From Symbiodinium sp. CCMP2592 (taxonomy: Eukaryota; Sar; Dinophyceae; Suessiales; Symbiodiniaceae), in assembly GCA_905221615.1 (NCBI GenBank), contig CAJNDT010004035.1:598880-662879 (forward strand): DNA of 64,000 nucleotides, in the 5' to 3' direction. The position numbers were made by a program, and so were the translations under genes. Below, in pieces: positions 4,505 through 33,894 of the stretch; within the stretch, counting starts at the first letter, position 1; each line of letters begins with the position of its first letter. The notes under the pieces are model-generated. The model saw nothing but the letters and a program-made list of their open reading frames with translations, was not told the DNA's origin and searched no databases.

Positions 4505-5168
4505 GACAACCCTGTATCCAAGGGCCTTCTCCTCACGCTCTGCAGCCATTTCCTATTTACGATGTACATATAACTGAACTTGAGTGCAGATTACACAGCA
4601 GGGGGTGGCAGCAGGGTCCAGAGTCTGCCACCAACGAAGACACTCTGGATACCCTGGTGAAGCACGGTCTGATCAACCGTGTGTACCTGCCGTTTGTGAC
4701 ATCGTATATCATCTTTGCTGTACATTGGTTTCACTTGGCTATTATTATTCTGGTTGCGCTTCTCTGGATATGGCATGGGGCTAAGCCGAGAACCCCGACC
4801 AGTCGTTCTCCTGCAGCTATGGTATCACTTCAGAAACAGTCAGTGCTTGAGTTCATGTCGTCTGGTATGCGCTGGTTTCTGGATGGCTTGGGGCTAAGCC
4901 GAGAACCCCGTTTAGCACGTACACTTGCAAGCATTGTTCAGTGCCAATGTCCACCTCTTCAGCCCTTGCCGTGTCCTCCGGTGCGTTGGGGTTCAGGCTG
5001 GCGTTGTGGTTTAGTTAGGCAGGTTGAGGTGTCAGCCACAGACTTTCTGCACTTCCTCTTTGCAGTTGCTGTCCATGAAGCTACCTGTCCGAAGTCTCTG
5101 ATGTGTGGTCACTTGAGACCTGGACATCAGATGGTCCGTCGCATACCGAAACCTTCCTTAGCATTCAG
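4505..5168 (+). repeat. Terminal direct repeat (pseudo-LTR) copy 1
   Basis: Collinear with 33231-33894 at a constant offset of 28726 and with very few substitutions. It contains a leader-like motif (4540-4553) and two copies of GGGGCTAAGCCGAGAACCCC (about 4777 and 4890). An open frame of 172 codons (4657-5175) has one strongly hydrophobic stretch, but the 19-bp deletion in copy 2 destroys it, so I do not call it a gene. It probably carries the promoter and 5' leader for ORF A and the 3' end of the preceding unit; that role is inferred. Confidence 0.85.
4540..4553 (+). promoter_or_regulatory. Spliced-leader-like motif in the terminal repeat
   Basis: CTGCAGCCATTTCC is the terminal-repeat member of the motif family found before nearly every element ORF. 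It could serve ORF A, which has no copy of its own close to its ATG. Confidence 0.5.
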
Positions 5169-5479
5169 TGTGTAGTCCTCCGGGACGGTGGTGTACGCCT
5201 CGGTGCTGCACTCAGATCCTCCAAGTTCGGAGGCGCCAAATTCAGTGTCAGCGCTCAGACCAGTTCAATGGAGAGAACAGTGAAGCCACACGGCCTACCC
5301 GCCTCTCATGGCACCCACAAATTCGGCTCCATGCCTACCAACACGCGATTGCAGCTCAAGCAGCTTCAAGCACTCATACCCAAGGACTCAGGCAGGATAC
5401 GTTTTGACCGTAACGTTCTAGCGACTTTTCCCTGTAGTAGTTGTTGTTGTAGGCTGTGCATTGCTTGTCTGCATTCGCC

Positions 5480-6771
5480 ATGCCTCCTCGTCCCCGTCCA
5501 TCCTGTGCACCTGGACTCTGGCCGACCGCACCCTCTCGATCACGATCTCGGCGACGCCCGAGGTCTGCGTCTTCATCGTCCTCTACTTCTTCTTCCTCGT
5601 CAACGCCGGCGGCACCTACGACCCGGACTGCCGCACCTCAACGTTCCACGTTGACTGGCCGAATCGCTGCCCCGTTACAGCCTCCACGACCTATTGATAT
5701 GGCAGCTCCAATGTTCCTGATCTTTCTCCTCTTCCTCCGAGCCCGTTTTGGCCTGGTTTACCTCCCGCTGGCTCACCGCCGTCTTCCTCCAACAACGACC
5801 AGTCCGTGCCTGCTGCTTATGCCTCTACCTCGCCGCCGGACCCGTCTTCTACCCCTACGGCATCTTCGACTTCGCCACCTACAGCATCTTCGACTTCACC
5901 AGCTCCTTTCAGCTCTGCTTGCACGCTGGCCACCTTACGCCAGTGTTTGGCCGCGGCAGACCAGCTTGATGCCTACCTACAATCCGATTACTCTACCCGA
6001 TTGGGCTCCCTCAAGGCGGTACACTGGGATCGAGTATATACTGCATTGCTGCAATACAGGTCCTACTTCAAAGCGCTCCCTCATCGTCGACAATGTCAAC
6101 AGGAGTTGCTCTTGGAGGGACGCAAATTTGACGTGCCTTTTACTTTAGCCGATCCGATTCTTACAGTGATGCATCTGCTGGTACATGCGGGATACCATCC
6201 TCACAGTGTTCAGTTCAAGTTCACACATGTCGAGGCTCCCCAACATCAACCAGACAAAGCTGGCCGACCCATGCTCATGGTGTCGCTCCCCTTCCCCGCA
6301 GCAGCTGTACGGGTTAGCGGGGCACCTGCAGTCGCCTATTTTGGCCATAACACGGACCTTCAGGCCGCCTTTGGCATCCTGAAAGAAGGATGCATTCGCC
6401 CCAGCAACTATGACCCCGTTGACACTTCTTGGCTGCCGAGTCCTGCCTTTTACTCTCGCGCTTCCGTCCACAGTCTCAGCGGAGCCTTACGGGCTGCAGC
6501 CAAGTTTGGGGGATGGGGTTCTCCCCGTCCGATTTGTGTATATGGCCGAATCCCTATTTGCTATCTCGACATAGCCAATGCCGCGCCTACCGACACACCG
6601 TCTTCAGTGCTTCCCAACACTCCCGCGGCCTATCACCTGAAGAGCGACAGCGGAGGCACCGTCCCCGAAAACGCGGCGAACTACTTCGTCTCCATCCTGC
6701 ACGGCAACGACAACCGTTGGGGGGTGCACTCCACGCTCGCACAACCAGAAGGCATCGCCGTGTTCATGTGA
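5480..6771 (+). CDS. Element ORF A, unit 1: Ser/Arg/Pro-rich N-terminus, folded C-terminus, apparent frameshift
   Basis: From ATG 5480 the frame reads MPPRPRPSCAPGLW and a Ser/Arg/Thr/Pro-rich tract. Near 5690-5700 the protein-like signal moves to the frame that ends at 6771 and contains a longer Ser/Pro/Thr linker and a compact domain with YFGHNTDLQAAFGILKEGCI and FYSRASVHSLSGALRAA. The shape (a His-containing strand, then an IL-xxG-xxRP turn) is faintly like ADP-ribosyltransferase folds, but no catalytic triad is identified. A conservative alternative is to start at ATG 5806 (321 residues). Unit 2 has the same shift. The Gly codon near 6725 changes silently between units, which supports this frame for the C-terminal part. 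Confidence 0.6.
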
Positions 6772-6851
6772 GAGGACCCACAAAAGGTGTGCGTGATTTG
6801 CGTTATGGCATGGCTGGTCTCTTTGTTGTTGCCGCCTTATTCTTCTTCATC

Positions 6852-6865
6852 CCGCAGCCGTTTTG
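6852..6865 (+). promoter_or_regulatory. Spliced-leader-like motif before ORF B
   Basis: CCGCAGCCGTTTTG, 30 nt before the ATG of B, differs from the first 14 bases of the dinoflagellate spliced leader (CCGTAGCCATTTTG) at two positions. The CGCAG could also be a trans-splice acceptor. Confidence 0.65.
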
Positions 6866-31913: not shown

Positions 31914-32492
31914 ATGGCTTCCTTCATTGACGTCCTCCCCTTGCTCCTCTCCTATTTCGAGATGCAGACTGTGATACAATTGGATCCCCGTCATTGCCAA
32001 CGTCCACACACTGACGACCGCCACACCACTCGTTCCGCCTTCTCCATTTTGACCGCACATCACGGCGATTGTTCCTGGCACCAATATGGCGTTTGGCAAC
32101 AGTTCCTCGCCGCCCTTCAAGATCACAAGATGAGCGCCCACAACTTCTTTGGCTTCCACCACGACAACACGGTGTTCACGATCTATCACTATCAGCCCTC
32201 GGTCATTGTATACTGCAATCAACTGTGTTGGCGAGCCCACGTCCACTTACGTTCTGCATCACGACTTTGCCTACGTGTCCGTATTCGAGACCCTACCCTA
32301 GCACAGTGGCGACCTACTTCGTCTGGACCCTGGATTACCACATGCTGGTGTTCAGCGCATTGCCTTTCCTTTTCCAAATGGACACCTACGATTTCTCGCC
32401 GCCACTCACCTCCTCCACCCATCGCTACGGACAATCCTTATTGGCAACAAGAACAACAACGACATGGTCTTCTTCCCGCTCTGAGACGGTGA
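31914..32492 (+). CDS. Element ORF K, unit 2
   Basis: 192 residues, identical to unit 1; the double leader-like motif lies upstream at about 31851-31878. Confidence 0.6.
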   Translation: MASFIDVLPLLLSYFEMQTVIQLDPRHCQRPHTDDRHTTRSAFSILTAHHGDCSWHQYGVWQQFLAALQDHKMSAHNFFGFHHDNTVFTIYHYQPSVIVYCNQLCWRAHVHLRSASRLCLRVRIRDPTLAQWRPTSSGPWITTCWCSAHCLSFSKWTPTISRRHSPPPPIATDNPYWQQEQQRHGLLPALRR

Positions 32493-32641
32493 AGCTTTGG
32501 AGGACACGGACGGCAATTTTTGAGACAAAGACCCTCACTTGCACATCTTGACCCTGGTCCTTTTGCTCCACCGCAGCCTTTTCAGCAATATTTGGTTAGT
32601 CCTCCGCCTCTCCTTTCCTTCCTTTCGTCGTCCGTACACTC

Positions 32642-33232
32642 ATGGCCCCGCACCTATCCGACATTCCTTTGGAATGGTGGCTTGATTACCTGGTGGAGCT
32701 CCGAGTATGGCAAGTTCGTCCGATGACCTCCCCCGATCTCCAGATCCCCAGCACCCTCCTTGACCCACGCTTTGTGATATCGCAACACCGATTCACCACA
32801 TCTCAGAACCGCTACTACCTCGACACCCTCCACGGACTTTGTCAACTCAACCCTTCTTTCCAACGACTGGATTACTATGACCCGGACATTTGCGGTTACC
32901 AGTACAGCATGTTCACAACTGCACCATCTCCGAGTGTACTTCACGCACTACTTCTCGCCGACCGTCGACTGCATTGCAACATGAGTCAACTGATACTGCG
33001 TCATCGCTGGCAACTTTGTCTTGGTCTACTTGCACCTAGAGTCTACGCTCGTCATGTTGATCGACGTCACTTTCAAAGACACGAATTGCCAACTCCTCTT
33101 CGAGAAGTTCTACATCGACTTGCCTTGCACCGCTGCCAGATCCTGCAAGTTCACCCGATGGCTCTACCTGCTCTACATGCTCACCGTCTTCGTCTGATTA
33201 ATTCACCCCGCTACGGCGGGGTGTGTGTGTGA
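32642..33232 (+). CDS. Element ORF L, complete copy
   Basis: A 196-residue protein starting MAPHLSDIPLEWWLDYL. The core YDPDICGYQYSMFTTAPSPS then LLLADRRLH has the same shape as the E/F motif (Y, then MF, then L-L and a D/N-R pair). A His/Arg/Leu-rich helical C-terminus follows. The final codons are supplied by the unit-end hairpin and GT tract (PRYGGVCV), and the TGA stop spans the junction with the terminal repeat, so the stop depends on the repeat being there. Confidence 0.65.
   Translation: MAPHLSDIPLEWWLDYLVELRVWQVRPMTSPDLQIPSTLLDPRFVISQHRFTTSQNRYYLDTLHGLCQLNPSFQRLDYYDPDICGYQYSMFTTAPSPSVLHALLLADRRLHCNMSQLILRHRWQLCLGLLAPRVYARHVDRRHFQRHELPTPLREVLHRLALHRCQILQVHPMALPALHAHRLRLINSPRYGGVCV
33204..33223 (+). 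terminator. Unit-end hairpin with TACG loop
   Basis: CACCCCGC-TACG-GCGGGGTG forms a perfect 8-bp stem closed by C(TACG)G, the very stable UNCG-type tetraloop in RNA. It is followed by a GT tract (33221-33230) and then the terminal repeat. It could be an RT recognition structure or an RNA 3'-end signal. The hairpin is seen; the role is inferred. Confidence 0.55.
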
Positions 33233-33894
33233 CAACCCTGTATCCAAGGGCCTTCTCCTCACGCTCTGCAGCCATTTCCTATTTACGATGTACATATAAC
33301 TGAACTTGAGTGCAGATTACACAGCAGGGGGTGGCAGCAGGGTCCAGAGTCTGCCACCAACGAAGACACTCTGGATACCCTGGTGAAGCACGGTCTGATC
33401 AACCGTGTGTACCTGCCGTTTGTGACATCGTATATCATCTTTGCTGTACATTGGTTTCACTTGGCTATTATTATTCTGGTTGCGCTTCTCTGGATATGGC
33501 ATGGGGCTAAGCCGAGAACCCTGACCAGTCGTTCTCCTGCAGCTATGGTATCACTTCAGAAACAGTCAGTGCTTGAGTTCATGTCGTCTGGTATGCGCTG
33601 GTTTCTGGATGGCCTGGGGCTAAGCCGAGAACCCCGTTTAGCACGTACACTTGCAAGCATTGTTCAGTGCCAATGTCCACCTCTTCAGTCCTTGCCGTGT
33701 CCTCCGGTGCGTTGGGGTTCAGGCTGGCGTTGTGGTTTAGTTAGGCAGGTTGAGGTGTCAGCCACAGACTTTCTGCACTTCCTCTTTGCAGTTGCTGTCC
33801 ATGAAGCTACCTGTCCGAAGTCTCTGATGTGTGGTCACTTGAGACCTGGACATCAGATGGTCCGTCGCATACCGAAACCTTCCTTAGCATTCAG
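33231..33894 (+). repeat. Terminal direct repeat copy 3 (right end of array)
   Basis: 664 bp, collinear with copy 1. At the right edge CATTCAG is doubled (CATTCAGCATTCAG) and followed by a GT-rich run, so the break point lies at about 33894-33900. Confidence 0.85.

Follow-up and report, generated by a model that had tools for sequence, protein, structure and literature searches.

Among Penelope-like elements (PLEs), the Chlamys and Naiad elements, reportedly described by Craig and colleagues in 2021, are said to carry a GIY-YIG endonuclease domain before the reverse transcriptase (RT) domain, to have a CxC motif in the linker, to be bounded by pseudo-long terminal repeats (pseudo-LTRs) and to insert into microsatellites. 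They reportedly have a telomerase-like RT and no hammerhead ribozyme. Elements of this N-terminal-endonuclease group are not known to have the CCHH motif of other PLE endonucleases. Canonical Penelope and Poseidon elements have a C-terminal GIY-YIG domain and a single open reading frame (ORF). Their copies, which have pseudo-LTRs, are found in full or partial tandem arrangement (PMC11167929, PMC8969392), the pseudo-LTRs originating from a second, truncated tandem copy (PMC8969392). The Terminons (Athena) of bdelloid rotifers are giant multigene PLEs, whose RTs are endonuclease-deficient and which have a 3' hammerhead, telomeric repeats and DEDDy, GDSL and Rep genes (PMC6431247). PLEs are said to have been unreported in TSAR before a find in Ectocarpus in 2025 (PMC12477816). 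Neither a multigene PLE outside rotifers nor a dinoflagellate PLE was found among the literature matches listed (titles and abstract openings). The locus presented here lies in a window of 64,000 nucleotides, the whole stretch analysed, from the coral-symbiont alga Symbiodinium sp. CCMP2592 (contig CAJNDT010004035.1, positions 598,880 to 662,879), and comprises two copies of a unit with 13 candidate genes, A to L and RT. Measuring 14.1 kb, this unit is probably a multigene retroelement of the Penelope-like kind that belongs in, or close to, the N-terminal-endonuclease (Chlamys-like) group, and the start motif before most of its genes would be a trans-splice acceptor.

The likeness to Chlamys and Naiad consists of the N-terminal GIY-YIG domain, CxC linker, pseudo-LTRs, microsatellite insertion, lack of a hammerhead and telomerase-like RT, whereas about a dozen extra genes, a length of 14 kb, a motif C reading YVDN in relatives, the start motif on most genes and an alveolate host set the unit apart. 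The RT ORF of the window has the GIY-YIG pattern at amino acid 405, the CxC linker PFLCCCQ at 693 and RT motif A at 949. In 10 of 14 sequences the GIY-YIG pattern lies N-terminal to the RT (it was not found in P0010-P0013, where this part is missing or garbled), and the linker motif was found in 11, being absent from the gene models P0001 and P0002 and from P0013. Motif C is present in P0001-P0013. It is missing together with neighbouring residues from copy 1 of the window (junction near 16239), where the C-terminal frame continues beyond, and the same loss is found in copy 2 (junction about 30360), which is additionally frameshifted. From their sequences both window RT copies look dead, and the family does not. 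The GIY-YIG-RT, named in the initial annotation as the only recognisable enzyme, thus holds for its domain order but not for its catalytic motif C. A fold search with a model of the relative P0003 (mean predicted local distance difference test, pLDDT, 53.6) returned telomerases as the best structural matches, and the model is consistent with an RT of the telomerase/PLE lineage. In a sequence search of the PDB, the RT profile had no match and the window RT two weak matches to a ribosomal protein (E 0.87).

The terminal direct repeats, of ~664 bp, align as 4495-5168 and 33221-33894 with 99.56% identity. At this one locus, TG tracts are found at five junctions: the left junction reads (TG)n-ACAACC and the right one CATTCAG-(TG)n, the repeat/body junction is CATTCAG-TGTGTAG (twice), and that between body and right repeat is GGGG(TG)n-ACAACC. 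With its internal TG tract and its TG end, the element would have microhomology to a TG microsatellite target. Accessory ORFs are shared with the Terminons, as is perhaps a coiled coil (E here), but the GIY-YIG domain lies N-terminally in the RT ORF, the ends are TG microsatellite, and Rfam matched no hammerhead, neither with gathering scores across the window nor with E<=1 in 32600-34200, so that a relationship to these elements, proposed earlier, was not borne out. Pfam found no GDSL, DEDDy or Rep domain among the 13 ORFs, and no protease, RNase H or integrase of the LTR retrotransposon type. The copy arrangement recalls canonical Penelope and Poseidon, which differ by endonuclease position and gene number. 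The fold of the terminal-repeat RNA is nothing special (z 0.08). The right terminal repeat contains a 41-nt direct repeat (80%, 33481-33634), and an 8-bp hairpin, CACCCCGC-TACG-GCGGGGTG, lies at its start (33204-33223).

Three protein searches gave five CCMP2592 gene models, on contigs of 454, 644, 335, 163 and 714 kb, none identical to any window ORF. The gene order can be read from them because they fuse neighbouring ORFs: P0001 spans F, G, I, RT and J, with H only out of frame; P0002 spans RT and, out of frame, J; P0016 spans D, E, F and G; P0017 D and E; and P0014 B. In-frame identity is 94-98% for P0001, P0002 and P0017 and 78-93% for P0016 and P0014. Identity is higher in the own frame of each ORF than in other frames of the gene models. 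For the RT, 692/713 residues are identical in frame versus 99/114 out of frame in P0001, and 678/713 versus 120/157 in P0002; for E the figures are 39/42 and 70/90 versus 77/151 (P0016) and 115/117 versus 186/206 (P0017), and in P0001 they are 99/103 versus 49/61 for I and 59/61 versus 76/96 for J. In-frame identity is 193/201 (P0017) and 87/105 (P0016) for D, 168/171 (P0001) and 114/137 (P0016) for F, 137/146 (P0001) and 199/254 (P0016) for G, and 166/200 for B in P0014 (298 amino acids). H has one 29-residue out-of-frame piece (27/29), without an in-frame piece for comparison. Intergenic stretches (28/54 in P0001, 6/21 in P0016) and the RT tail past the deletion (58/123 in P0001, 76/144 in P0002) align poorly and were left out of the frame argument. 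These comparisons support a repeated, multi-copy element, parts of whose gene order are conserved in CCMP2592 gene models, and the ORFs other than the RT would be accessory genes, which for the most part are conserved in other copies. The proposal that a dinoflagellate carries a Penelope-type element with many genes and a GIY-YIG-RT is upheld by this recurrence of D-E-F-G and F-G-I-RT-J; the ORFs were not found only as unlinked host genes.

On reading the sequence upstream of each ORF, a recurring CCGCAGCCGTTT was noticed. The motif CCGCAGCCnTTT stands 23-71 nt upstream of the start codon in 11 of the 13 ORFs (C-L and RT), and is spread over 6852-18458 in copy 1 and 20973-32571 in copy 2. When at most one mismatch is allowed, each unit has ten occurrences, all of them on the plus strand, and the remainder of the window has none, against a simulated expectation of 0.00 per unit (maximum 0 in 60 simulations). 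The site of J is degenerate, with three mismatches and 16/21 identity to the dinoflagellate spliced leader (DinoSL); sites of such quality also arise by chance in the flanks. With the starts as first listed, nine of the 11 sites qualify, those of H and K only after the start is moved to the first ATG past the motif, and these two ORFs probably start later than listed (11965 and 17801). With H and K so corrected, ten of the 11 ORFs begin at the first ATG that follows the motif; at the RT this ATG opens a 90-amino-acid ORF in another frame. Across the 11 sites, eight of 12 positions are invariant, three have a single exception and position 9 is variable, with sharp edges; CAG is kept 11/11 and TTT 10/11, the exception being TAT. 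The 90 nt upstream of the ORFs have a pyrimidine content of 0.643, compared with 0.586 in random stretches of the unit (P 0.0014). The motif is also visible in translation, as PQPF, in two other copies (P0001 before the RT, P0016 before E), and the left pseudo-LTR has a variant, CTGCAGCCATTT, at 4540 with two mismatches. No description of such a start motif was among the literature matches listed.

The motif equals the first 12 nt of the DinoSL, CCGTAGCCATTT, with T4 changed to C (11/11) and A9 to G (7/11). The best matches upstream of the 13 ORFs sum to 163 with the leader and to 139.6 with shuffled leaders (s.d. 3.8; maximum 153 among 300 shuffles). When a dinoflagellate retrogene receives a new leader, the splicing removes seven nucleotides from the beginning of the relic one, whose AG could serve as acceptor (PMC12014239). 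The motif lies in the register of a trans-splice acceptor at this known re-splicing point, with TAG changed to CAG. It shares with the relics the CCGTAG/CCATTT register and overlapping distances upstream of start codons, but it is a shared derived form, cut down to 12 nt, that recurs before most genes of a single mobile element.

Self-comparison of the window aligned 4670-18709 with 18810-32822 as direct copies, 99.5% identical over 14 kb, with a period of 14,121 bp (ORF starts 5480 and 19601). Of the ORFs of at least 150 amino acids that lie between the repeats, 14 per unit are on the plus strand, and the minus strand has one in copy 1 and none in copy 2; in 200 simulations per unit the plus-strand mean was 1.87, with maxima of 7 and 6. 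The two direct units with 664-bp terminal repeats of the initial annotation are thereby confirmed, but not their length of 14.6 kb; the strand bias of its 12 ORFs is strong, but 13 candidates are counted (12 and the RT), among which A is unsupported. Its 29-kb tandem was not confirmed. The sole run of N in the window is exactly 100 N long and lies precisely at the copy boundary; the contig before it is without the last ~0.4 kb of the body, and the one after it without the first ~0.17 kb of the repeat. As the expected L-pseudo-LTR-body junction is missing at the gap, the tandem is unproven and the unit is described as 14.1 kb. A single element measures 14.1-14.8 kb, 29 kb being the upper reading.

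The aligned copies differ at 42 places, by 37 substitutions (27 transitions) and five indels. In the compared ORF stretches, 11 codon changes are synonymous and five are not (15 and eight with ORF J included), where synonymous changes would be expected to make up 0.26-0.32 of the total (P 0.0001-0.0011 for the excess); the count leaves out E after its frameshift, the RT after 15303, ORF L and the non-coding parts. Each copy has a private frameshift, in E for copy 1 and in the RT for copy 2. It follows from the synonymous excess, which rests much on the RT (six to one), that the copies diverged with at least some genes under purifying selection. Recombination may have spread the motif-C deletion; alternatively, the endonuclease part may be retained by itself. 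Ten of the 42 differences fall within 250 bp (16604-16853), a density reached in none of 20,000 random placements; this cluster suggests mosaic copies, by recombination or gene conversion between element variants.

For the motif, the role of acceptor is likelier than that of promoter, since CAG is invariant and the leader is present on all dinoflagellate mRNAs (PMC6050394). It is rather improbable that the motif would instead be a promoter element or a functionless, decayed leader relic: CAG is kept at every site, after pyrimidine-rich sequence and at the re-splicing point of known relics, and the same T-to-C change 11 times would hardly come from independent decay. Several points nevertheless weigh against the proposed acceptor and the element assignment. 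A promoter role for DinoSL relics, with TTT(G) conserved, is in print (PMC6050394), and the TTT found at ten of the 11 sites fits it and is unexplained by a pure acceptor. The authors who considered the relic AG offer tandem leader genes, not repeated trans-splicing, for the relics in transcripts (PMC6616646). The full 21-nt DinoSL has no match in the window at up to three mismatches, only the derived 12-nt form recurring; the richest or longest pyrimidine stretch (15 nt) before the ORFs does not significantly exceed the random level (P 0.078); and A and B have no clear start motif. As to the enzyme, Pfam recognised almost nothing in the 13 ORFs, with RVT_1 on the RT at E=0.19, below the cut-off, and the GIY-YIG profile matched the relative P0003 at only E=0.012, also below the cut-off. 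The resemblance of the P0003 model to telomerases is weak (TM-scores 0.25-0.29, root-mean-square deviations 17-26 Å), and the Chlamys-like placement is by domain order, linker motif, ends and fold match. Beyond the two units, the matches included no in-frame homologue of C, H, K or L, none of the four having been used as query. The junction between the two units is unsequenced, ORF G changed between them by one synonymous substitution to three others, and the synonymous bias in the RT is puzzling if the RT was already dead in the common ancestor.

Under the retroelement interpretation, a long sense RNA would be made, perhaps from the pseudo-LTR, and the host spliced leader would be trans-spliced onto pyrimidine-rich-CCGCAG/CCnTTT acceptors before most ORFs, giving separate capped monocistronic mRNAs. 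By analogy with PLEs, the GIY-YIG-RT would nick a (CA/TG)n microsatellite, where the TG-ended, unspliced full-length RNA would be copied by target-primed reverse transcription, and the 664-bp pseudo-LTR would result from TG microhomology that the internal TG tract shares with the RNA end and with the target. A bolder version, which we regard as unlikely, is a telomerase-related, virus-genome-like retroelement, whose ~14-kb RNA would be both replication template and precursor of about a dozen mRNAs, freed by the host leader through gene-start signals derived from the spliced leader and functionally like those of RNA viruses; the RS/RD-rich and coiled-coil proteins of this element would assemble into a ribonucleoprotein (RNP) or particle of its own. 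The many co-oriented small genes with a common gene-start signal resemble a viral expression strategy, and the unit could, instead of a transposon, be the decayed remains of an integrated virus whose RT is telomerase-like. This is very improbable: Pfam gave no viral gene family for the 13 ORFs, PHROGs gave only two weak matches of unknown function for eight ORFs (E 0.04 and 0.25), scans of viral contigs (IMG/VR) with the RT and E gave no relative, and the ends are PLE-like. Prokaryote contigs scanned with the RT and E gave none either. A host gene cluster adjoining an ordinary Penelope element would account for the many ORFs without a recognised domain, and the terminal repeats of PLEs may enclose host genes (PMC3846280). 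This has hardly any probability, since stretches of the gene order are found again in further gene models, at two levels of divergence, and the RT and the other genes have the start motif in common. A different matter is the tandem itself, which is somewhat more probably an assembly effect, either because scaffolding with transcripts brought two unlinked copies together or because a single locus appears twice, so that only single elements of 14.1-14.8 kb exist; this is compatible with the favoured identity of the element. The CCMP2592 (Symbiodinium tridacnidorum) assembly was made with MaSuRCA and then scaffolded with transcripts by L_RNA_scaffolder (PMC8045281), which puts in 100 Ns where the gap size is undeterminable (PMC3846640), as is seen exactly at the copy boundary. 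The copies differ, however, mostly by synonymous substitutions and private frameshifts, as two real sequences would, and a tandem arrangement is frequent in PLEs (PMC11167929).

If the retroelement interpretation is true, a multigene lineage is added to the Penelope/telomerase branch outside rotifers, in alveolates, and host trans-splicing lets a retroelement carry many genes on one RNA as monocistronic mRNAs, and a coral symbiont would harbour a mobile relative of telomerase that has about a dozen genes, where a single one is usual. Trans-splicing also takes place in bdelloid rotifers, in which Terminons occur, and a link between trans-splicing hosts and multigene retroelements is therefore testable. 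The element is also a candidate for supplying the reverse transcription behind the retrogenes that are widespread in dinoflagellates.

Coordinates are collected in Table 1. ORF A has little support, as the part of P0014 upstream and homologous to it matches only out of frame (28/86). ORF B had been read as ADP-ribosyltransferase-like, a guess with nothing in support. ORF E consists of an RS-rich N-terminus, a conserved central part and a C-terminal part judged helical by eye; its relatives P0015 and P0018 are 56% and 43-44% identical, and its AlphaFold2 model (mean pLDDT 36) was unusable and discarded. The RS/RD-rich proteins C and E may, as a guess from composition, bind or coat RNA; the self-encoded RNP or particle of the initial annotation was not substantiated, no structural protein having been recognised. 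Its duplicated small family is retained for F and G, which are paralogous (E=1e-14), but not for D, H, I, K and L, for which the F/G profile never scored above the shuffle maximum. ORF H, once thought possibly ubiquitin-like, has no Pfam match at E<=10, and none of its four PDB matches at that threshold is ubiquitin.

Table 1. Features of the window (positions from its first letter)
Feature	Position	Strand	Remarks
Left terminal direct repeat (pseudo-LTR)	4505..5168	+	adjoins (TG)133 microsatellite 4241-4505
ORF B, 200 aa	6169..6771	+	no recognised domain, no clear start motif
ORF C, 295 aa	6896..7783	+	RD/RS-rich; start motif 6852 (+44)
ORF D, 203 aa	7888..8499	+	start motif 7835
ORF E	8635..10117	+	frameshifted near 9782 in copy 1; start motif 8566
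ORF F, 200 aa	10289..10891	+	paralogue of G; start motif 10252
ORF G, 254 aa	11024..11788	+	paralogue of F; start motif 10971
ORF H, corrected start, 136 aa	11965..12375	+	start motif 11905 (+60)
ORF I, 164 aa	12459..12953	+	start motif 12436
RT ORF	13093..16542	+	N-terminal GIY-YIG, CxC linker, RT apparently of telomerase type; start motif 13048
ORF J, 284 aa	16823..17677	+	R/S-rich; degenerate start motif 16781 (3 mismatches)
ORF K, corrected start, 192 aa	17801..18379	+	start motif 17738 (+63)
Assembly gap, 100 N	18710..18809	none	between copy 1 end and copy 2 start
Partial terminal repeat	18810..19289	+	start of second contig; inside 19 bp shorter than other two
Second gene cluster copy (A-K)	19601..32492	+	E intact; RT frameshifted near 29429, motif C lost
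Start motifs of copy 2	20973, 21956, 22687, 24375, 25094, 26028, 26559, 27171, 31851	+	degenerate at 30903
ORF E, intact copy, 494 aa	22756-24240	+	copy 2
ORF L, 196 aa	32642..33232	+	copy-1 counterpart from 18529 runs into gap; start motif 32571
Right terminal direct repeat	33221..33894	+	starts with TG tract; end CATTCAG, then TG repeats
Telomere-like arrays	3904-3965, 39020-39082, 41764-41908, 45388-45952, 49522-49581		flanks; Tandem Repeats Finder

Around the element, Tandem Repeats Finder lists degenerate TTTAGGG/CCCTAAA telomere-like arrays in both flanks and none inside it. The right flank also has a GTAGTA hexamer array of 27 copies (53919-54080) and a DnaJ domain (56315-56767, Pfam E 5.7e-16), the latter indicating a nuclear host context.

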